A stretch of 64,000 nucleotides of DNA from assembly GCA_949130485.1 (NCBI GenBank), contig OX422184.1, forward strand, positions 9,464,996 to 9,528,995. Direction: 5' to 3'. The DNA comes from Agelas oroides. Taxonomy: Eukaryota > Porifera > Demospongiae > Agelasida > Agelasidae. The translations under genes and the position numbers were made by a program. The stretch's first letter is position 1. Each line of letters opens with the position of its first letter. Positions 24,167-64,000 of this stretch are shown one piece after another. Below the pieces are notes generated by a model. It worked only from the letters and a program-made list of their open reading frames with translations. It was not told where the DNA came from and made no database searches.

Positions 24167-25858
24167 GTGTGCTATGTTTGTTACCGATCTCACTTAGTTA
24201 TTCTTCAACAAAGAAATGACTCCAGCACAGATAAGGATCTTTTGCAGCTTATTGCTACATTATCCAAGCAAATACCTACCAACATCAAATCCACTGATGA
24301 ATTGATTAATGCCGCAATGACAAGAGTGGTCGTTGCTGTTGGCAGGGACCTTCTTAACGGGAATGTGATGTTGCTTCCTGATGTTCACAATTTGTTTAAT
24401 TTGTATGCAAGTGAACTGTCACCTCACCTACGTGAAGAGATCGATACATCAAAGCTTGTTACATCAGCAAACATTTTAAGCAACCTCAAAGCTAATTTAC
24501 AGCACCACATAGCATATAGCTGTAAGACGAGAAAGCATGGCACCCTCATATACAGACCCAATGCAGACCTTAGACCAGCCCTTGCTCAAGCATTGTGGAG
24601 ATTACGGAGCAAAAACATTACCAAGGAATGCAGTAGTGAAACAGACACTTCAAAATCAGATGATCCACAACAATACTTGAATGTGCTTGATGATCTGAAC
24701 ACCTGTGCATGTTCGCACATTACATCTTATCTGTCAAAGCATAACAAACAAAATTTTGAGTTTGTGGATCTGGACATTGACAAGGAAATTGAAGGTACTG
24801 ATCCCAAACTATGGGAGGCAATTTGTCTACTGTCTAGGTCAACATCTGAAAGAAGAGGCATATCTAAAGTTACCAACCCATCATCACGAGCCTACCACAC
24901 CAAAAAAATCCGACGCTTTAACCTTCTCTGTGCACTCTTGTTTTGTATTAATGATGACTATACAATTCCACTGCATATGCTAGTTACAGATGTCATAGAA
25001 GGTCAAGGAGGATCAGCCACATTAATAAAGATTCTAAATCAATTGGGAGTTTGCTCATCAGCAGATACACTTTCTCGCTACATCTTAAATAAAACTAGCA
25101 ACCCACAAACCAGGATGGACCAGTGCCTTAACCAGGATGGTTTCACAATCGTGTCTACAGATAACATTGACTTTCTGCACTCTTATGCAAGAGTGTATGA
25201 AGGTAGCCAGAACAGTGGCTGGCATGGGACATCTGTACAAGCGGTACAACCACTACCATCACTCTCAATCCAGTCGGAAGCAACTTCCATGGATCAAATT
25301 GAGTCACACATTTCCCACCAGTGTAGGGAAACGGACTCACACCAGCCCTCCCTGTCAGTACCCAATAGCATGCCACACCCAAGCATGAGTGTTGACACAG
25401 TCACTGACAAATGCCTCTCCCAAGCACACCCTTTAACCAACACCAGTCACTTAACAGAGTTGATTAGCTGCTATCATAAGGAGCCATCACATCTTGCTAC
25501 ATGTACAAGAACAGTAGGTGAAAGTACACCTGCTTTGAACACAGACAGCAGCACAACCTACAATTACCAAAGTTCTGCACAAGGAAATGCTGAGATCACA
25601 CTTCGGTGTACTCTCAACCGAAAAAGAACAGAAAGATGCTCACCATTTCCTTCGCCACAGAAGCTCACACAGTCACCAGCTCGTAAACAGCGAAAAAGAC
25701 CCCCACCTCGCACAGGAACAGAACTATCAACACATACTCCACTTGCTGAACCCCTGTCGGTATCGAACTACCACTTCATTAACACCTGCAGTGAAGAGAT
25801 ACCAGCAGATAAAACTCTTTCAGATTTCCTGCCAAATGAAAAGGAAACACAGCACTGA
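24167..25858 (+). pseudogene. CXC/PIN family protein, segment 2: helical region and Ser/Pro linker
   Basis: This segment continues the family protein after the Penelope insertion. It opens CYVCYRSHLVILQQ, then a mostly helical region (residues 20-330) with AYSCKTRKHGTLIYRP, VDLDIDKEIEGTDPKLWEAI and NPSSRAYHTKKIRRFNLLC. The part from 25137 (GFTIVSTDNIDFLHSYARVY) leads into a low-complexity Ser/Thr/His/Pro linker to the end. The second copy at 33007-32774 matches the TDPKLWEAI region, and its linker carries the minisatellite at 31.8-32.6 kb. A frame change separates this segment from the next. No family name is known to me. Confidence 0.6.
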
Positions 25859-25887
25859 ATGAATTACAGGAACAAATTCATGCATAC

Positions 25888-28122
25888 ATGTTACAAAAAG
25901 TTGCCATTGGAAGTACGAACCCTCAGGAGACATTTATCAACATCCAAGATTATCTTTCTCTTGCCAGAGCAAACCACACAGAGAATTCCAATGTACTCTA
26001 CCTTGACGTCATGGATGCCAAGTCAGATAGCAAGGACACATTGATGTCAATGCTCCAGAACCTTCATCAGCAGTTCATTAGCAGGCAAGGTCGTCAGCAC
26101 CTAGTGGTTGAGGGGGATGCTAAGATTTATGAACTTCTTCAATCATTGAAATTTGAGTATGGGGATGAATTACAGTGGCTAATTCCATTCCCAGGCGACT
26201 GGCACTTACTAATGAATTACCAATCAGCCCTTATGAAACCCTACTTTGATGCTGGACTGAAGTCCCTAGCAGAAGCAAGTGGGTATCCTGTGGTAGCAAT
26301 ACGTAATTGTACACAGTTCAAGAGAACCCACTTCTTCATTTTGGAATCTTGGGAAGCCATGTACATAGCCATGTTGTCTACTTTTATCAACATTTCATCA
26401 AAGGACCAATCAAAAACGGAATCAACCGTTTCACCCAAAAATCTTCTCGAACAGGCCATAAAGGCTCTTAATGAAGTCAACAAGAGAACACCAGATGAAT
26501 TTAGGAAAAGATTCAATGCCAAAGTGGCGGACATCACTTCCAGCATATCACCTTTCTACCAACAATTCAAGGAGTTCATTCAGACTATGGCTTGCAGGGA
26601 TGAAACATGGAGATTCTGGATACAATATGTGTTTGTGGATGCCATGGCTTATGTCAGTCTATTTTTTGCTATCCGCAGTGGGGATTGGCATCTGAGGATG
26701 AGCAGTGTTAAAAGTACGGCTGCAGTCTTCACTGCATTCGATCACCCCACCTACCAAAAACTCATTTCCAACCATCTTTCTGATTTACTAAGCTTGCCTC
26801 GATCAGTCCTACTCATGTTTGAACAAGGAGCATTTGTTGTCAACATCACTGGCAGATCATGGCATTCTGTGGGCGTAGACGAGGCTCATGAAATGCTTAT
26901 AAACAAGCAATGTAAAATGTCTATCACTAAACCATCTCCAGACTACATAAACAGGATAGCATCATACCTCACCTATCGGACAAAAGCTCTTCAACAAGTC
27001 AAACAGCAGGTGTTTCCAGAAACAAAAAAAAAATCAAATGAACCCCAGTCAGTGTTTTCGTCAAAGGATTGTGACAAGAAGTCAAAACGCAATGTGAATG
27101 CTCAGTTGCGTGCAATAACAGCAAGTTCTCTATTTGAGACTAGTGAACAACGAGGATTGTTTAATCCCTTTACTAATCAAAGAGCACATGATCAAAAGCA
27201 TCACGACCTCCTTAATTTCAGAAGAATAGGACAACAGGAGTATTTACTAAGGATATCTTATTTCATCCTCAAAAATCCCAGTGTGAAGACTCCTAATAGG
27301 AAGCGTTCATTGCAAACATTTTCTACCAAGCAAGTGAACAGAAAGAGAGTGCATCAACTAGAAAGGGACCGACAGCTAGTCCTCTCAGCCATGAAAAAGA
27401 AAATACAGTTTTCTCAAAAGACAGGCAAGCCAATAGACAGGATGGGAGAACAACTTTTGGTACATCCACTATCAATTTGTGACAGCGATGGCAACCCCTT
27501 AAAGGGGCAAAAGAGCTACTTCACTCAGTCTTTAGAAGGCAGATACAAAAACTCATCTCCCCCAGTGATTACACCATATTTACCTGCTGGTTGGAAGCCT
27601 GAATGTTCTATTGTGGAAGGTATGTTTCTCATAAACTCATCCCCTCTACGTAGTCATAGCACCATGACTGACTATGCCAGATTTCTTCTCAGGAGGTTTG
27701 TTGTTTCTCAGTTTAGCAAAGGCAGCAAAGAGGTCCACGTGATTTTTGATAATCCTGGACGGCTACAGAACACACCAAAATATTTTGAACAGAAACGACG
27801 AGATGCAACTGCCAAAGTATTAGCAGATCACAGATGTGATGACATTACAAGTCAAACCATGATACCACACAAGAAATGGAGAGAAAATTTTATCAATTGC
27901 CGAAGCTGTAAGAGGAAGCTTGTACAATTTATTGGGAACTTTTTCCTTCACAATGCGGCCACAAACCTCTGTACGAATCAGACTCTGTATGTAGCAGGCA
28001 CATTTGAAGGTGAGATCACCGACACAGCTTGGTTCGTACAAGGGCAAAGTAGTCCCCAGCCAGACCCTACATTCACCTGCAGTGCGGAAGAAACGGACAC
28101 TCGACTGTGGCTACATTGTTAG
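25888..28122 (+). pseudogene. CXC/PIN family protein, segment 3: putative DDE/RNase H-like core
   Basis: This is the longest intact piece, 744 codons. Three spaced acidic motifs stand out early: NVLYLDVMDAKSDS (about residues 30-50), LVVEGDAKIYELL (70-85) and IPFPGDWHLLMNYQ (100-115). They are followed by AIRSGDWHLRMSS, GVDEAHEMLINKQ and SPDYINRIASYLTYR. I infer an RNase H-like fold because the same three motifs, in the same order, occur in the DUF6589-type gene at 61.9-64 kb. The C-terminal third (from about 27300) is basic and leads to SAEETDTRLWLHC, which belongs with the PIN-like part in the next frame. The frame ends there, so the gene is broken. Confidence 0.6.
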
Positions 28123-54041: not shown

Positions 54042-56660
54042 GAGTAAGTGCTGGTATTGTGGGTCAGGTGGTATTATGAGTCATCACTGCCAATCTTCCT
54101 GATTTTTTCTCTGCAGTATAATGTCACACCAACAAGTAACACGCACAAATTAGACCCGCCCAACTGCCCTGTATCACGTGATTAGCGCGCATGCGTAGAC
54201 TCTGGTAATCAATTTTTGTCCAGAAATCTGAGCAGCTTTCTTGGGGAGTACTCTGCACGACTCTACCTACGCGCGTCGACTCAGTGGTCCGAGAAATAAG
54301 TCTGATTTCAACTGTGCTCTATTCTGAGGGTGGAGAAGTTCTCCCTTTTGCTGTGAGTGATTTGCTTTAAACTCGTATGTGTGTCATAAGTTTTCTTTAC
54401 TATTTACGAGGGTCTACTCTTGTTTTTCCTGGTACTTGATGTTTCAGAGTATTTCCATTGAGAGAGCTAGTTTAGGTGATGTAGATTTATAGTGAGCAAA
54501 TAAAGGCATGCACATGCACCATTCTAAATAATGATCACTTACATGCTAATTAATGCCCACTACTCACTGAAAGTACATTGGTCATTACTTTAGGTACAAT
54601 GGCTGAAGGAAAGAGAAAGTTATGGACAGAAGAGGGCATGGAGGCTGCAACAAGGAGTGTGCTCGATGAAAACAGGAGCTTGAGAGAAGCTTCTAGGCTG
54701 TATAATGTAGCACCCCTTTAAAGACCAAAAGGCAGGTCGTGCATGGTTCGATGGCTTCTGTCGCAGACACCCTAGATTAACAATACGTGCCCCTCAACCT
54801 CTCTCATATTTTCGTGCTCAGAGTGCAAACATGGAGACCATAACGGATCTTTTCGGAAAGCTTGGAGCGATATACGGAAGATTAAATCTGATATCAAAGC
54901 CGATGCAAGTATATAACTGTGATGAGACTGGGGTGAGTGTGGTACATAAACCGGGTAAAGTAGTGGCTGAGCTGGGACGCAGGAATGTATATGCCATTAC
55001 ATCGGGTGAGAAGGGGAAAACTCATACGGTATTGTCATGTGCTTCAGCATCTGGCTTTGTATTGCCGCCAATGATGATATATCCCCGAAAGCAATTACCA
55101 CCTGCTAACTTTTGTGAAGGAGCTATTGCACACACCCTTTTCGTTAGTAGTAGTAATGGCTGGATCAACAGTGATCTATTCCTGCAATGGTTTGAGTTCT
55201 TCCTGCAACATATCCCACCAACTTGGCCAGTGTTGCTCATCATGGATGGGCATGGGTCTCACATGTCAATTGACCTCATTGAACTAGCACGATCCAATGG
55301 TGTTCATATATTGTGCCTTCCATCTCATACCACGCATGTCCTGCAGCCCCTTGACATGGGTGTTTTCAAGTCATTTAAGAGCCATTTTTCAAAGGCATGC
55401 AGCAAATACCTTGCTGCTAACCCAGGAAGAGTAATCACCAGTAATAAGTTGGCATCCCTTGTCGCTGAAGCATGGCCTCAATCTCACACACCTTTGAACG
55501 TTATGTCTGGGTTCAAGAAAAGTGGCATCTTTCCTCTTAATCCCAGTGAGGTGACAGATAGACAGATTGCACCATCGAAACTATTCCAGCAACAGTCGAC
55601 AAAGAGCAGTCAAGATGTGGGTTCAGAAATTCCTACTTCTACCTCAAAAGATCCTCTCTTTTCACCTGACAAAGTTGCCCTGTACAAGAAACGTTATGAA
55701 GAGGGATATGACCTTGAGGATCCAGGTTATGTGGCATGGCTTAAGATTAATCACCCTACTGAAGTTTGTAGTATTGCCACCAAATCGTCGTCAGACTCTG
55801 GAAGGCTATTGTTGAAAGAGATTCATCCGATTCAGGAAAGCCTAAGCCGTCGAGTAGTGATGCTGTGTCTGAGATTCTTGTTTTTCCATCCCCCGTATCA
55901 AGACCCAAGAGTAAACGCAAGCCTGCTTTGAATGCTAGAACAGTCTGCATTACTGATGACAGCGTATTGGTAGAATTGAAGAAGAGGTTGAAAAGGCTGA
56001 AATTGAAAAAGAAAAGGAAGCAAAGAGATTAGAAAAAGAACGTAAGAAGAAAGTCAAAGAAGAGAAGCAATTGTTGAAGAAACAGAAAAAGAAAGAGCGT
56101 ACTGAAAAGCAGTTGCCAACTACTGGAGGTCATTGTTTAGGCAATGGAAAGAAAACTAGGCCGAAAAGGAATACCTGTACTCAACAGAGAGCTTCAACCC
56201 CTATTGACGAAGTCCTAGCAGCTATGCAACTGTCCAGTGATATCGATGACGAAGCTGAATGTGATTCAGATTCCTCCAAAGATGATGCCACTTGCCCCAA
56301 ATGTGGTGCTACATATGCAGACAGTACTGAAAAGTGGATCTGTTGTGACGGATGCAACATGTGGTTCAATAAAAAAGTGTACGAATATAAAGGGAAGAGT
56401 GCCCAAGTTCTATTATTGTGAAAGCTGTGTTTCCTAAACAGTGACTCATAATTCATACCATGACTCATAATACCACTCTAAAGTATTGCTGTTGTTTGTT
56501 ATAATATAACCTGTGTGTATAATGGTTACAAGGTGAAAAGTTTATATGTTGTGTACAAATGTTTAATATTCTTTTGGTAAGAAATTGATTTAAGTTTGCA
56601 CCTTGCACCGGAAATTGCGACCTAAAACATTTTTGTGACTCATAACTGCCTCATTTACTC
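54042..56660 (+). mobile_element. Pogo-type DNA transposon, about 2.6 kb
   Basis: Terminal repeats: GAGTAAGTGCTGGTATTGTG at 54042, and at the right end the complement of TGACTCATAACTGCCTCATT then TACTC ending at 56660. About 29 bp match with seven to nine differences. TA lies at 54040-54041 and 56661-56662, the usual target duplication of the Tc1/mariner/pogo superfamily. The right end abuts the flank of the MULE (56701), and the left end lies 30 bp after the element copy ending at 54011. Confidence 0.75.
54599..56437 (+). pseudogene. Pogo transposase with C-terminal PHD finger, broken
   Basis: Start MAEGKRKLWTEEGMEAATRS leads into a psq helix-turn-helix, which stops after about 40 codons; the next part (from 54720, DQKAGRAWFDGFCRRHPRL) is the second half of the CENP-B-type helix-turn-helix, so about 70 codons are deleted. 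The DDE_1 core follows in one frame (54831-55800): VYNCDETG (first D), VLLIMDGHGSHMS (second D) and HVLQPLDMGVFKSF (third D). After a frame change near 55800 come SEILVFPSPVSRPKSKRK, a long basic coiled coil, and a PHD finger: CPKCGATYADSTEKWICCDG then CNMWF, with a last frame change before FYYCESCVS and the stop at 56437. PHD-tailed pogo proteins are known from cnidarians. The copy has all three acids but is not functional. Confidence 0.8.
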
Positions 56661-56832
56661 TATATACGCCTAATCTTTACTTCCCGTGAGCGCGAGCAGC
56701 GTATTTATACGGGATCGTCTAAGTTCACATAGCTCGATGAGGTTACATCATACAAAATTATACACGGAATTCCCCTTAGTAGCTTTGACACATTGCGCAT
56801 GCGCGTGGCGGGAAATGTGGAATTGCGCAGCA

Positions 56833-59800
56833 ATGGCACAGCAAGCTAGCACCCAGGCCACTTCCCAAAACAGCCAGCCAAGCTGGTCTAAGGGACTGAA
56901 ACGTAGTGGGCTGTACTATGAGGGCATAGTAGATGATTGTGACCAGGTTCTGGAGCTCCATCACAGAAGTACTATGTCCACCTTTGGTACCAGAACTTCA
57001 TACAGAGCTCAGCCAAAAAGTGTTAGTGAAGAGGACACTCAAGACAAGGAGAACAAGGTAATAGTTGCTACTCTTTGAAACTCAACAATAAACAAAAAGG
57101 ATTACAATTTAAAGCATACAGTAAAATACTGCATGCCACTTGCATGCAGTGTCATTCACTGATTCAGGTTAGTGTCTGCAACATAATCGATCTTCATGAA
57201 TTGATCCACACCCCCAGCCTAACAGCAGCAACACGGGAAAACGGCAACTGTTCTGGAAACACAAGGCTGTTGAATTCAGCAACACGCCTTTTGCCCTGGG
57301 AGAGACAAGAATAATGCACTGTCAATTTAGCGATCACTATTTCAAAAAGAAAGAACGGAAAAGCTCAAGAGTCTGCATACAAGGAACGAGAAAAATTGGA
57401 TGCCAAGCTCATGTCGAAATACGAGAGTATATCTTGTACCCTGAATACTCTGTCAATGTTACAAAGACACTGTCTGCTTGGAAAACAAGAACAATTCGTG
57501 AGTCTAAACTAGAAGAATTACAAATGTCTCTCAAAACTGGAAAGGAGGTGAAAGTTGAGAAGAAATATTTCGTGTCATTACCCACAGAAGAGGCACACCA
57601 CCAGACTCACCTAACAGGTAGGATACATGGCATGGCCCAAAAAGTACATCCTCAGGTAGCAGAAAAAATCAGGGAACTGGTTTCTGAGGGCATCACTGAC
57701 ACCTCATCCGTGAGTCGAATGCTTCGGCATTATGTCAATCACCACCTGTGTCAGGAAGAAATGCCTAAACCCAGTGACAGGGCATACTATCCAACGAAAG
57801 ATGACATCAAAAACCATGTTTACCTAGCAATACAAGCACTACAGCTCTCTAAGCTTGATCAGAAAAATTTGGAGCTGAAGCTACCGAAATGGAAATCAGA
57901 GCATCCTGATTCAAACATCTTCTTCAGGCCATTCAAACTAAAGGAGGGTATCAATGAGGAGAAAAAACATGCTCTCAAACCAGGGTGTTACACTGGTGTC
58001 AGCACTACATGTGAAAGTGAGACTGCAGAAGATGAAAACAATTTTGAAGACACATTGCTGTGGATACATCAGGAGAAGTGGCAACAGGAACTCCTGATAA
58101 AGTACGGAAATGACATCAGCCTCATAGATGCCACTTACAAAACTACTAAATATGAGTTGCCACTCTTTTTCATATCTGTGTGAACAAATGTTGGCTATTC
58201 TCCTGTAGCACAGTTCATCACACAAAATGAAACTGCGCAGGATATTCAGGAAGCTTTGGAAGTGCTGAAAACTTGGAATCCTTTGTGGAAACCAAACTTT
58301 TTCATGTTGGACTACTCTGAAGCTGAAATTGCAGCTATAGAGAGTGCTTTTCCTGGAATTCAAACCTACTTGTGTGATTTTCATAGGGAGCAGTGTTGGG
58401 AACTGTGGGTAAGGGATCAAAAACATGAAGTCTCACCTGAGGATGGAGAGAAGTTATTGGAACTGCTCCGTGCCTGTGCATATGCTCCACCTGCAACTGA
58501 AGAAGGTGTACCAGTGAACCAGTTTTACAAAGCAGCTGAATCAGCCCTGAAGGAGAGTGACCTATCAAATAAAACCCACACATTCGTTACTGGCTCCTCA
58601 ACATGTGGCTAAACAAACCACAAGTATGTAAATGTGGTTGTGTGTTTGTCTAAAATAACTGGAAGCAGTTGTGCAGGTGCAATAGACATGTTGCCAAACT
58701 TAGGAGGTTAGTATGCATATCTTTACAGTTTCTTCTTTTTTTTTTATACAGCGTTGGGCCCAGCTTACAGGGATGCAACCTTCCATCGTGCTGTTGACAC
58801 CAACAATGGCACAGAAGCCTTGAATAAGGCTCGCAAATATAGCTATTTGCCCAGGCGCCGTTCCTTAACTTTGTCCCAGGTAGCAGCATTGCTGATTGAA
58901 GAATTTCTTCCAGATGCATTCCAAAAATACCTATTTCAGAACTTCAAGCAAACAGCCTTCAACAGGGTCTACAATGATTTTGTTCCCTCGCACCTACAAG
59001 GAAGGCCCAGGCAGGTGATTTTACACTGTCTAGACAGAAAATCCAGCAGTCACAAATTCCAAGAGGATGATATAGCTACTGTGAGCGGGAAAGCTGGGGA
59101 GTTTACAGTACAAGGGAAAAAAAGAGTCCACACAGTTGACTTTGGAACATCAACTGGAATGCCATCATGCACCTGCCTAGATTGGACAAAACATCAACTT
59201 CCTTGCAGACACTTTTTTGCAGTGTTCAAACACAAAAGAGAATGGTCTTGGAATGATCTTCCCCATGAGTACCTGTGTAAACCCCACATCAGTGCCGATA
59301 TTAAAGCACTGAACACACATTTCAGCCAATCAGAGAGTTCCAATGACTCCGATTTGCTACCCCCAAATCACAATCTTCCCGCTGAGCCATCAACTGATGA
59401 CCAGGAGTTGTCCCTTCCTACTGCTAATAAAAAGGTAAGCTGTTTGTGTGTTTAGTGATCCTTCTGAATGTTTACTCAGAATATTTATTCCTCAGGGAAA
59501 GAGTGCATTAAGGGAAGCAGAGACAGCAAGAATTACCCTCAAAGTCTTGGAGACACTCACAGTTGTGAAGATGTGCAAGCTCTGGTGAAGCTGAACAAAA
59601 CCCTTGATGAGACCGTAGCAACCTTCAAACATGCTCTTCCTAACACTGAAGGATTAATAATCAGAAAAGAAGCAGCATGTAAAGCCACAGCGAAATTCAA
59701 AGCTCTGAAACTACAGAAAGTGGTAGAAAAGGAGGGATTTGGAAGCTTAAAACTGTACACACGGAGGGGTCGGAAGAGATTGGACAGCAGCTATAGGAAC

Positions 59801-59977
59801 AGAGTTGGTCAACGAGCAGCCAGGTTACGAAAGGTATTTAGCAGTTTAGGTAGGATCAATGTAGAAAACATCATGTGTTACAATGTTACAGGCAGCAAGA
59901 GCCCTTGTCATCAGCAACATGAAGAAGCATTCAAACCTCAAACCTCTCAACCAGTGAGTACTAATGGCCATTCATAG
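56833..59977 (+). pseudogene. MULE transposase, multi-exon, broken in several places
   Basis: Exon 1 (56833-57057) starts MAQQASTQATSQNSQPSWSK and ends at a GTAATA donor. A later exon (about 57170-58180) has GETRIMHCQFSDHYFKKKER and RKIGCQAHVEIREYILYP, a zinc-type DNA-binding head. The MULE core follows: ISLIDATYKT (first D), FMLDYSEAEIAAIESAFPG (second D) and YLCDFHREQCW. A stop (TGA) interrupts at 58182. Next is a donor near 58624, an acceptor at 58752, and NNGTEALNKARKYSYLPRRR. The SWIM zinc finger is complete: CTCLDWTKHQLPCRHFF. The exon ends at a GTAAGC donor at 59435. Helical tail exons follow to 59977, with a frame change near 59560. Family and motifs are certain; this copy is dead (about four breaks). 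Confidence 0.8.
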
Positions 59978-60296
59978 TCATATATGTATGCTATGTCAAT
60001 ATCACGTACATGTAGGAGCATGCAATTGAACCCCATTCACTACTTGCACCAGCAACCAGCTCTGACTCACCACAGTGTAGTGCACCCACCACACAGGTGA
60101 GATATAAAATTGGTTAGTTTGACTAAATTTTATTCATGCGTAGACACATACATACACAGGTGCAAAATACCAAAGACATACAAGATACAAAGGACTTACC
60201 AAGAACATCACTGGCAGGTATGGAGTGCACCTTACTTCATTCAGAGTTCTGAGCCTAAGGGGAGAGGGTACGTACATGTAAGTATGATTCTATGTT

Positions 60297-61039
60297 TTGG
60301 TTTTCATAACAGGTAAAAAGAGAAAGCGATGTGGCCACTGCAATGGATGCCGAGCTGAGGATTGTGGTACATGCAAGTACTGCATTGATAATCCTCGCTT
60401 TGGAGGTCCAGGTAGAAAGAAGCAATGCTGTGTTGTGAGGAGGTGTACAAATATGAACCAGCCATCACCTAACCAAGTCTCAGAAATGCACCAATGGAGT
60501 GTACAGCTGCGAGAGCACTTGGCTCACCTTCTTCTTCCTCCAGGTACAAACTGTATCCTTTCATCTGTGTGTGTTACTCCACCTCCCACCACAGAGAGCT
60601 ACAAAGCAATTCTTACCAGCCTGGAACAACAGAATCGCACCATTGATAACATACAAGGTGATGGAAATTGTATGTTTCGATCATTATCGAAGGAGTTATT
60701 TGGAAGTGAGAAGTACCACTCTGACCTGAGGAAGCTTGTGACTGACTTTGAATACTGCAACCTTCAACTACAACCAGCATCTTCCAGCAAGGAAACATGC
60801 ATCCACCACATCAATAACATGAAAAACGAAGCCGTTTGGGGTACAACTACAGAATTGCTTTCATTTGCTTCTATGCTACACCCATCTTCACCTTCACAAA
60901 ATCTGGATCCTGCAGCAAATATTCTTGGGATCAGTTCAAACCATTCAGCTTGCAGAAATTGTCTTTTCACAATCCTGCTTTGAGAACACTTGCTGCAAGA
61001 TTTGCAAAGCTTGATTATCACATTGAGCTTCTACATTGA
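60297..61039 (+). pseudogene. CXXC zinc finger plus OTU cysteine protease domain
   Basis: After the acceptor CATAACAG (about 60312) the frame reads GKKRKRCGHCNGCRAEDCGT then CKYCIDNPRFGGPGRKKQCC and RRC, which holds all eight zinc-binding cysteines and the KFGG-type turn of CXXC domains (CFP1, MLL, DNMT1, TET1), which bind unmethylated CpG. About 80 residues later comes an OTU deubiquitinase-like domain: IQGDGNCMFRSLSKELFG has the catalytic Cys, VWGTTTELLSFASML the central helix, and DYHIELLH (in a neighbouring frame, to 61039) the catalytic His. One frame change near 60880 splits the OTU domain. Both modules lie before the right terminal repeat and on the transposase strand, so they are read as the C-terminal part of the MULE gene or a second gene of the element. 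Confidence 0.75.
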
Positions 61040-61080
61040 ACTATGTGAACTTAGACGATCCCGTATTTATACGCCTACGT

Positions 61081-61875: not shown

Positions 61876-64000
61876 GCTTCAGGAACAGCTACAACTAGTA
61901 CCAGACTGTTTACACTTTCACTTCCTCCAACAGATCTTAATGTCGATCCTGTGCCATCTTTGCTTACCACTGACCAGTCTCTTGGACAACAACTGGAGCT
62001 AGAACGACAAAAGAATGCTCAACTTGTGGTCAAGGTCCAGGGTTTGGAAGCAACTGTTGGGCAGCAAGAACAGCAACTTGTAAATATGGGAGAGCTTGTG
62101 AGTGTGTCCTTGGCTAGTCAATTGGATGAGGTTGTGCAACATACCACTCATCAGATTTATCATGGCCCAGACAGTATCGAACACTTCGATGCATTTACTG
62201 TGGAGGATGTCATTAGAGAGCTCCAAATGGATGCACCAGATGTTTATCAGCTATTCCAGACACTGGGGAATACAAAGAGAAATAAAAGGAGTGATCAGGA
62301 GATGTATAGCCCAGAAGAATTGAAGGCATTGATGTCAGCATGCATCCTACTGAATGCCCGGTCACAAAGAGTGAAGGGACTGCAGCTACTGATGAGCATT
62401 ATGCTGGTAGCAAGGTCTACTAGCAAGCAGGTGAGTACATGCAGTGCAAAACCCAATAAAATTTTAGTAATGTGTAATAATTCCAAAAGACATTCACAAA
62501 ATTATTCTGAAACAGGCAATCACAGTGCTGAACCATGCAGGAGTGTGTATGTCTTATGATCGCACATGGTACTACCTTCAAAGGCTAACCAATGAAGCCC
62601 AGTACCTGGAGATTGTCAAACAGGGTCACTGGATGTGGGCATATGAAAATATAAACATTCATATGCAAGCTCGTCATGAACGCCAAGGTTTGTTCAACTT
62701 CATAGCAAAAAGTATTCATCTTTTAACGTACACTTTCTAATTATTGTTGTAGACTACCATTCCAAAATGCTTAATGCAACATCACGACTTGCAATCAGCA
62801 TACAACACTTGCCTGACTGGGAGGTAGACTGGGATGACACAAAACCACAGAAGTCCAGGCGGGAGCTGCAACTACACGATATTTTGCCAAGTGAAGCAGA
62901 TGGTGAAGAATTTCATCGACGAGCAGTCCACTTTGTGATGCAGCTCTTGGTCACTGAATTTGATAGCCTCTCCAATCTCAGCCGATATGTCCCTCCTGAA
63001 AAGCCACTATTTCCAGCCACCAAGACCAATGTTGTCCCCATGCGACTACTGTTTCGGGATGAAAAATACACCTCAGAAAATGTCGAAATCCTGAAAGAGA
63101 CAGCGAAAGATGCAGGTCTTCAGAGCAGCCCACAGGTACTTGATACAGACACAAGTGCTTTAATTAGAATAGAGCATAGAGTTTACTTACACAACCCTTA
63201 CTGAAATGAAAACAACACTCTATGCAGGTGGACATAGATCAGATGACGTAAAAATATTCGAACAGGAAAAATTTGGATGACCCCTGAAATTCAAGCAGCA
63301 AACCAGTTGAAATGGGCCGAGGTTCCAGGTAATGTCTTGATGCCGTAATTACAATCAGTAACGCACAGTACATGCAAACACCAGCATGATCAAAAATGGA
63401 ACAAATTTACCACTTAAATACCTGTTTTAGGTGATTTCCATTTCTTGTGGGAATATCTGAAAGTGATTATTGACACCTACTGGGGACAGCTGTCACTTAC
63501 TGGATGTCTGTGTCATCTACGGGAGTACATAAACCACCTTTCTGTGGATAGGAAGGCAAAGACCTTCAGTATTGCGGATGAGTTTGTTCTCCATACATTC
63601 AGAGCCCATGTACTTGCTGCAATCTGTGATCAGCTACACATACAGTCTCCATCTGATCCAGTCACACATGACCCCACAGTGGAATGGCTACAGAAGACGG
63701 CAACATCGATTGTAGATAATACTCTCACACCACCCCTTTGTGCTTCTCAAGATCCTGTGTATGGGCTGCACAGATCATTTGTCGCAACGGCATTCTTGTA
63801 CTCTGACCTCCGACAAGCCATTCGGTTTGAAAATGGCCCACGTATTATACGTTTGTGGAAGATGTGGCTTCTTCGATTCTTGGGAACTGGCAAAAAAAAC
63901 TATTCAACAGAGGCGGCTCATCTGATCTGCAATGTTCAGGCAGACTATCCTAGGCACATTGCCTACATAGTTGTTCACAATCGTACTGTGAATACTGATG
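61876..64000 (+). CDS. DUF6589-type protein, multi-exon, runs off the window
   Basis: Exons with GT/AG borders: 61876-62430, 62516-62687, 62753-63135, 63228-63328 and 63431 to the window end; the first exon is uncertain (an ATG at 61772 does not join in phase). A coiled-coil-like N-terminus (LELERQKNAQLVVKVQGLEA) leads to the DUF6589 core. There I see WAYENINIHMQARHERQ, VVPMRLLFRDEKYTSENVEI, VDIDQMT and VPGDFHFLWEYLKVIIDTYW, the last three being candidate catalytic acids of an RNase H-like fold (inference). A one-base shift after VDIDQMT breaks exon 63228-63328; the correct continuation reads IRTGKIWMTPEIQAANQLKW. DUF6589 proteins are abundant in sponges, other invertebrates and fungi, and look transposon-related. 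The C-terminus is beyond 64000. Confidence 0.65.

Follow-up and report, generated by a model that had tools for sequence, protein, structure and literature searches.

Why would a DNA transposon encode, in addition to its transposase, a CpG-binding finger and a ubiquitin protease? This question is raised by a Mutator-like element (MULE) located on the + strand at positions 56711-61062 of a 64,000-nt stretch of Agelas oroides DNA, termed here the window. A CXXC domain and an OTU domain follow the MULE transposase of this element. The window copy itself is a dead element, with a stop codon, frameshifts and an OTU domain devoid of its catalytic histidine. The reading proposed here is that it represents an old MULE clade in which a single protein combines the transposase with a CpG reader and a deubiquitinase, and would act at unmethylated, CpG-rich DNA; we give this reading an even chance of being correct. 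Directly supported are the anatomy of the element, its mobility as a unit, its many copies, the depth of its lineages, the conservation of CXXC and OTU, and the open reading, by predicted splicing, of the gene in one copy of a related family, family A.

Anatomy of the window element

The element is flanked on both sides by a 10-bp target-site duplication, GTATTTATAC, at 56701-56710 and identically at 61063-61072. Its terminal inverted repeats (TIRs) occupy 56711-56739 (+ strand) and 61034-61062 (- strand, delimited by inverted-repeat comparison); they are perfect over 22 bp and then imperfect, and the left one has the GGGA...TTCACA pattern common to family A and a second family, B. The initial annotation had described TIRs of 32 bp in an element spanning 56701-61072. 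The inverted repeat does exist, but its length was overestimated, and the outer 10 bp on each side belong to the target site: GTATTTATAC is near-palindromic and thereby lengthens the apparent inverted repeat beyond the 22-bp perfect TIR. With the outer duplication bases included, 56699-56739 pairs with 61034-61074 (41 nt at 90% identity). MULE target-site duplications typically measure ~8-11 bp, and this 10-bp duplication, the TIRs and a DDE domain above the Pfam cut-off assign the element to the MULE superfamily.

Pfam analysis agrees with the annotated succession of a MULE transposase, a SWIM finger, an eight-cysteine CXXC domain and an OTU domain on one strand, and reveals an N-terminal ALS2CR8/CARF domain (57227-57823, E 6e-32) that had been missed. 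The MULE DDE domain (58121-58384) comes next and is split by an in-frame TGA at 58181-58183: its second part scores 27.5 bits (E 4.2e-6), just below the cut-off of 27.6, while the domain reaches 52 bits when read through the stop. The SWIM zinc finger (59150-59233, E 1.3e-5) is followed by a basic linker and by the zf-CXXC domain (60312-60446, E 1.7e-12), which displays its eight cysteines and an RFGG motif. The OTU domain (60654-60881, E 6.6e-9), with a GDGNC motif, lies in the same open frame as CXXC. An NCBIfam search with three window frames returned no match.

The exons on the + strand were predicted mostly by eye. Exon 1 (56833-57057) runs from a start codon to an AAG|GTA donor in phase 0 and has counterparts in families A and B. 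Exon 2 (57218-58612, both limits approximate) encodes ALS2CR8/CARF and MULE DDE, exon 3 (58752-59434) the end of DDE and SWIM, and exon 4 (59496-59833), also found in families A and B, the basic linker. Two small linker exons are possible, at 60016-60096 (phase 0 to 0) and at 60160-60217 (58 bp, phase 0 to 1); the latter would join the phase-1 acceptor of the CXXC-OTU exon. This last exon (60313-60983) loses its frame after OTU.

Decay is visible along the whole gene. Besides the TGA that interrupts the DDE exon, frameshifts are seen by eye at four places: close to the 3' end of this exon, where the SWIM exon begins, within exon 4, and in OTU, whose frame ends ahead of the catalytic histidine. 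The related fragment L032 retains this histidine.

A family of mobile elements

The genome (259 Mb, 141 contigs) contains at least 119 MULE, at least 91 CXXC and at least 79 OTU matches according to profile searches. All match lists are lower bounds, the scored candidates being 150 of 194 for MULE, 150 of 151 for CXXC, 116 of 116 for OTU and 85 of 259 for the transposase exon used below. Of the 91 CXXC matches, 48 are followed by an OTU match in the same orientation within 3.5 kb, and 29 are preceded by a MULE match, again in the same orientation, within 6 kb. Random placement yields a mean of 1.2 CXXC matches near a MULE in any orientation, which rules out a chance neighbourhood of the two. 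CXXC and OTU are both found downstream of 24 of the 119 MULE matches, and CXXC precedes OTU every time. Some loci sit in duplicated blocks (C1 5.46/5.59 Mb, C3 3.05/3.13 Mb and C1 27.69/27.82 Mb), and the loci are therefore not all independent.

The family-B transposase exon gave at least 96 matches, which merge into 64 loci of the clade. CXXC and OTU accompany the transposase at 33 of these loci, CXXC alone at four and OTU alone at three; among the 43 loci that reach 1200 bp in length, both domains are present at 28, CXXC alone at three, OTU alone at two and neither at ten. For this tally, ten extra OTU-side matches were joined to the Pfam list by hand. Viewed from the other side, a clade transposase precedes 33 of the 48 CXXC-OTU pairs by at most 6 kb. 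Seven lineages, with DDE identities of 46-56%, carry all four modules, the lesions among them being one stop each in the SWIM of C1:12.1 and the OTU of C14, and the partial OTU of the window copy. The ALS2CR8 domain follows the same distribution: 56 of the 64 clade loci have a match, and 62 of the 69 matches genome-wide fall at such loci. The domain that defines CARF is therefore mainly a transposase domain in this genome. A scan of viral contigs with the family-B exon found no relative. A separate arrangement was noticed at G000:C8:4.89-5.26 Mb, where four CXXC-OTU pairs on the + strand and four family-B-like transposase pieces on the - strand recur at ~97-139 kb spacing; it looks like a repeated block.

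At 98.6% identity across 4.93 kb, two family-A copies resemble each other closely enough to suggest fairly recent movement, and their homology stops at the TIRs; the TIR of the family-A copy on C10 is perfect over 39 bp. Both ends were read in 14 elements (the window copy, nine of family A and four of family B, counting a composite). The 10-bp duplication is perfect in eight, conserved at 9 of 10 positions in four and at 8 of 10 in one, and absent in one (family B on C5). Four elements with one or both ends missing (A on C15, A on C6, B on C1:27.8 and B on C31) stand outside this count.

The composite is a head-to-head pair of family-B elements at G000:C1:5022475-5030388 with one outer 10-bp duplication, GTTTCGGAAT, as if both had moved together. 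Short elements carrying the TIR of the window copy (L091-L103) also occur, and AC stands directly before GGGATC in all 13 end regions fetched from a larger set of matches. The insertion site of the window copy reads GT......AC, which may point to a target preference.

One gene by predicted splicing

Exon joins are in phase in families A and B and likewise, by eye, in the window wherever the frames are unbroken. The phase-1 acceptor of the CXXC exon is found in both families and, by eye, in the window; the 5' acceptor of family-B exon 2 was not placed. The most complete case is the family-A copy on C10, in which eight phase-matched predicted exons yield an open protein of 1154 residues. Pfam identifies in it ALS2CR8 (63-271), MULE/RNaseH-like (340-444; MULE DDE at 40.1 bits, above the cut-off), CXXC (901-945) and OTU (1000-1077). 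At E 0.1 Pfam reports no SWIM in this protein, in which a CxC...CxH pattern can nonetheless be seen. One small exon of the family-A copy on C9 is not open, by eye.

The copies, the deep lineages, the duplications and the open family-A gene indicate that the CXXC-OTU part belongs to the element. The initial proposal of one element and one gene is hence upheld by shared ends, copies, deep lineages, module order and in-phase exons, the phases being read by eye.

Conservation and kinship of the CXXC and OTU domains

The eight-cysteine spacing of CXXC is kept in eight of nine sequences, and the x-F/Y-G-G motif in all nine, its first residue being K, R, V or C. The domain is closest to that of KMT2B (1e-12), followed by KMT2A and DNMT1. 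OTU is closest to OTUD5 (7.5e-12), then to OTUD1 and OTUD3. The better copies possess the catalytic Asp and Cys (DGNC) and the His: these residues are retained in families A and B, in L036, L045 and L037, whose OTUs are 32-48% identical to that of family B, and also in L155 and in the stop-bearing L156. For L048, the His half alone is visible. By their kinship, CXXC is predicted to be of the CpG-binding kind and OTU to be a deubiquitinase, and both look able to function.

Comparison of family B with the other lineages, mostly at saturation of synonymous sites, yields a nonsynonymous distance (dN) of 0.22-0.39 in CXXC (0.46 with the decayed L010) and of 0.55-0.78 in OTU; the DDE exon gives 0.44-0.52 and the SWIM exon 0.33-0.73. 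Family A gives 0.35-0.49 for CXXC and 0.54-0.76 for OTU. Within family B, the ratio of nonsynonymous to synonymous distances (dN/dS) is 0-0.14 for CXXC and 0-0.33 for OTU, calculated from few differences, one OTU pair having no synonymous changes. It amounts to 0.47-1.42 for the DDE exon, several of these copies being decayed. Both CXXC and OTU thus look to be under selection, as far as sequence comparison can tell.

CpG setting of the insertions

The genome looks methylated, as the window exhibits a CpG observed-to-expected ratio (o/e) of 0.51 and a TpG o/e of 1.33. Insertion sites were compared with 32 random stretches at hand-chosen round-number positions (33 were taken and one, all N, was dropped); 26 of 35 end regions considered were accepted as flanks, some of which share repeats. 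Over 500 bp, the flanks of 17 insertions (families A and B and the window) have a CpG o/e of 0.78, and those of the 13 short elements 0.95, against 0.39 in the random set (p 1.2e-5 and 7.8e-6, respectively). For families A and B the value declines with distance from the insertion point (1.14, 0.85, 0.60). Within 100 bp it is 1.14 for full elements and 1.16 for short ones, against 0.43 at random. Element bodies are CpG-poor (0.27-0.32), with CpG-rich ends in families A and B and at the left end of the window copy.

Two MULEs served as controls. The first encodes a PHD finger and a Ulp1 protease, without CXXC (20 insertions, 11 of them young). In the second, no CXXC, PHD or OTU was found; its ends are less sure, since seven end pairs exhibit no clear target-site duplication. 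Over 500 bp, the first control reaches 0.56 (0.63 for the young copies), from which full elements differ with p 0.14, short elements with p 0.015 and the pooled set with p 0.031 when the young copies are used. Within 100 bp, it rises to 0.77 overall and 1.03 for young copies, the second control giving 0.86 (22 flanks) and 0.97 (13 flanks of young full-length copies). An initial comparison with the first control over all flanks gave p 0.0017, a difference that is lost once the control is restricted to its young copies; a 99.8% identical pair of control copies contributed one member to that comparison which was left out of the later ones. These tests are small and the ages approximate, and the sites may reflect which insertions were retained as well as where they occurred. 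MULEs in this genome, as seen in three groups, lie in CpG-rich DNA with or without CXXC.

Other candidate controls were set aside: the pogo-like neighbour described below has no second full-length copy in the genome, Tc1-like matches have no clear ends, and two (L130, L133) of four MULE regions fetched as controls have no convincing TIR. MULE copies L005-L008 lie inside a larger repeat and were rejected as independent ends.

Possible functions of the CXXC-OTU module

In the one-protein reading, the CARF/ALS2CR8 domain would probably bind the element ends. The CXXC finger would hold the transposase complex on unmethylated CpG, at these ends as well as at CpG-rich insertion sites, and OTU would there deubiquitinate the transposase itself, or else silencing proteins or chromatin close by. 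As an outcome, the complex would survive and work on open DNA. CXXC would add to, and not create, the CpG-rich insertion habit common to other MULEs here.

Several observations weigh against this reading. The exon joins depend on splice phase alone, read by eye. At 24 of the 64 clade transposase loci, both CXXC and OTU are missing within the limits searched, and 15 of the 48 CXXC-OTU pairs have no transposase match at most 6 kb upstream; most loci of both kinds have not been read. Across the seven lineages, DDE distances are uncorrelated with OTU or CXXC distances in a Mantel test. Within 100 bp, the CXXC family is not separated from the young PHD-Ulp1 copies (p 0.21 and 0.46) nor from the young copies of the second control (p 0.49 and 0.70). 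Finally, both CXXC-less control MULEs have CpG-rich ends, and the right end of the window copy contains a single CpG in 150 bp.

Part of this can be accounted for. The Mantel test is flat because the seven lineages are about equally distant, and DDE against SWIM is also merely marginal. Two of the 24 loci devoid of both domains are explained: C3:3195922 has its own CXXC-OTU ~8 kb away and element ends with a 9/10 duplication, and C1:5023069 is one half of the head-to-head composite, whose outer duplication is perfect. One transposase-less pair, C3:3187724, results from an inserted stretch. The genome-wide copies sought at the outset were obtained, at 24 MULE matches and in seven lineages, with the reservation of the mostly unread loci that lack both domains. 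Likewise, neither of the cases that had been named as fatal, a transposase reading on without the module or a host CXXC-OTU gene, was encountered in the loci read, a statement that leaves aside the mostly unread transposase-less pairs.

A first alternative, unlikely in our estimate, is that CXXC-OTU is an anti-silencing factor apart from transposition, made through alternative splicing or an alternative start. It would remove ubiquitin at the CpG-rich ends and so keep the element unmethylated and expressed, as VANC achieves by another route in Arabidopsis VANDAL elements. KDM2B-type CXXC proteins bring H2A ubiquitylation to mammalian CpG islands, and a CXXC-OTU protein could therefore oppose it. 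The CpG-poor bodies and CpG-rich ends (families A and B, left end in the window) would suit such a factor, and VANC offers the precedent of a transposon-encoded protein that counters silencing (PMC5735166). Conversely, ends just as rich in CpG are found in the control MULEs, which lack CXXC, and in families A and B, as well as by eye in the window copy, CXXC and transposase are linked through their exon phases.

Quite unlikely is a second alternative, close to what the initial annotation had put forward, in which the CXXC finger selects unmethylated CpG for insertion and OTU opens the target chromatin. The CpG excess over random DNA, its peak at the insertion point and, over 500 bp, the higher values of the short elements and of the pooled set relative to young controls agree with it. 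Full elements alone do not exceed these controls over 500 bp, and within 100 bp neither set exceeds the young copies of the two CXXC-less families. The CpG-rich sites are hence real and not special to the CXXC family: insertion into such DNA is not shown to stem from CXXC, and targeting by this finger is discarded as its demonstrated cause.

More doubtful again is the view that OTU protects or processes the transposase by removing its own ubiquitin, CXXC being merely a general DNA anchor. OTU or Ulp1 recur in the unrelated transposases of Ginger1, Mutator and Helitron elements (PMC2836005), as well as in the PHD-Ulp1 MULE of this genome, which suggests a generic role. The dN of CXXC is the lowest of all modules in most family-B comparisons (L036 excepted), beyond what a generic anchor needs. 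Plant MULEs often take up host exons, but a single copy that took up CXXC and OTU exons from the host by chance, or a pair of neighbouring genes, is very improbable given the same order at 24 MULE matches and in seven lineages, with conservation; the other copies rule out a capture limited to the window copy as an account of the family, while it could apply at any single locus.

A broader proposal, tentative and unlikely, is that transposons have repeatedly paired a reader of active, unmethylated chromatin with a ubiquitin or SUMO protease (CXXC-OTU here, PHD-Ulp1 in a second MULE of the genome and in one Ginger1 element). Such a pair would constitute a chromatin-clearing device on CpG-rich ends and targets, where it would remove ubiquitin, e.g. 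that placed on H2A by polycomb, which would otherwise silence the transposition complex or lead to its degradation. If a single transposase does combine a CpG reader with a deubiquitinase, the recurrence of ubiquitin and SUMO proteases in transposons becomes testable on one molecule of which nature has kept copies, and this natural combination of CpG reading and ubiquitin removal could serve as a tool to examine ubiquitin marks on CpG islands.

Other elements in the window and the genome

A pogo-like element (54068-56476) with 17-bp perfect inverted ends encodes a DDE_1 protein of 406 residues; its second frame harbors a weak PHD-finger match (E 0.0017, below the cut-off). DUF6589 frames are found at 25840-28122 (6.3e-17) and at 62680-63204 (3.7e-7), the latter ~1.6 kb to the right of the MULE element. 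A BED zinc finger frame is located at 1974-2807 on the - strand (1.3e-11); BED fingers are often part of hAT-type elements. Elsewhere in the genome, L132:2029-6192 (G000:C10:4874228-4878391) is another MULE, which encodes Ulp1 together with a PHD finger in its second frame and has a 76-bp perfect TIR and an 8-bp duplication, TCGTCGGT; it represents a further pair of a reader and a deconjugase.

Comparison with known systems

What seems new here is the pairing of CXXC with OTU; the combinations of MULE with Ulp1, of Ginger1 with OTU or Ulp1 and of Helitron with OTU are already known. Ulp1 acts on SUMO, and Helitrons are rolling-circle elements without a DDE domain. As the initial annotation had supposed, no description of CXXC and OTU in one transposon was found in the open literature, a weak absence, as subscription papers were mostly outside the search. 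Neither term occurs in the main text of PMC13359780 and PMC10027918, nor in the accessible part of PMC6446971.

PMC2836005 records MULEs with Ulp1 (C48), Ginger1 elements with a C-terminal OTU or Ulp1, one listed family having Ulp1 together with a PHD finger, and Helitrons with OTU. The Ulp1 MULEs resemble the window element in joining a MULE transposase to a ubiquitin-like protease; they differ by Ulp1 instead of OTU and by the absence of CXXC, and L132 also by its 8-bp duplication and separate second frame. OTU Helitrons share the presence of OTU in a transposon protein. Ginger1 shares the C-terminal ubiquitin-type protease, whereas its DDE is of the integrase type, from another superfamily, and the domain table of PMC2836005 contains no CXXC for it. 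In the family-A protein, Pfam detects no integrase domain at E 0.1, and finds MULE and ZSWIM1-3 RNaseH-like instead. VANC of VANDAL elements resembles the anti-silencing role considered above; it is a separate, sequence-specific protein, in which we know of no CXXC or OTU. The last parallel is CARF (ALS2CR8), a host transcription factor in vertebrates: the Pfam domain by which it is defined forms the N-terminus of the transposases of this clade. The domain thereby gains a transposon context, and a transposase of this kind may be the ancestor of vertebrate CARF.

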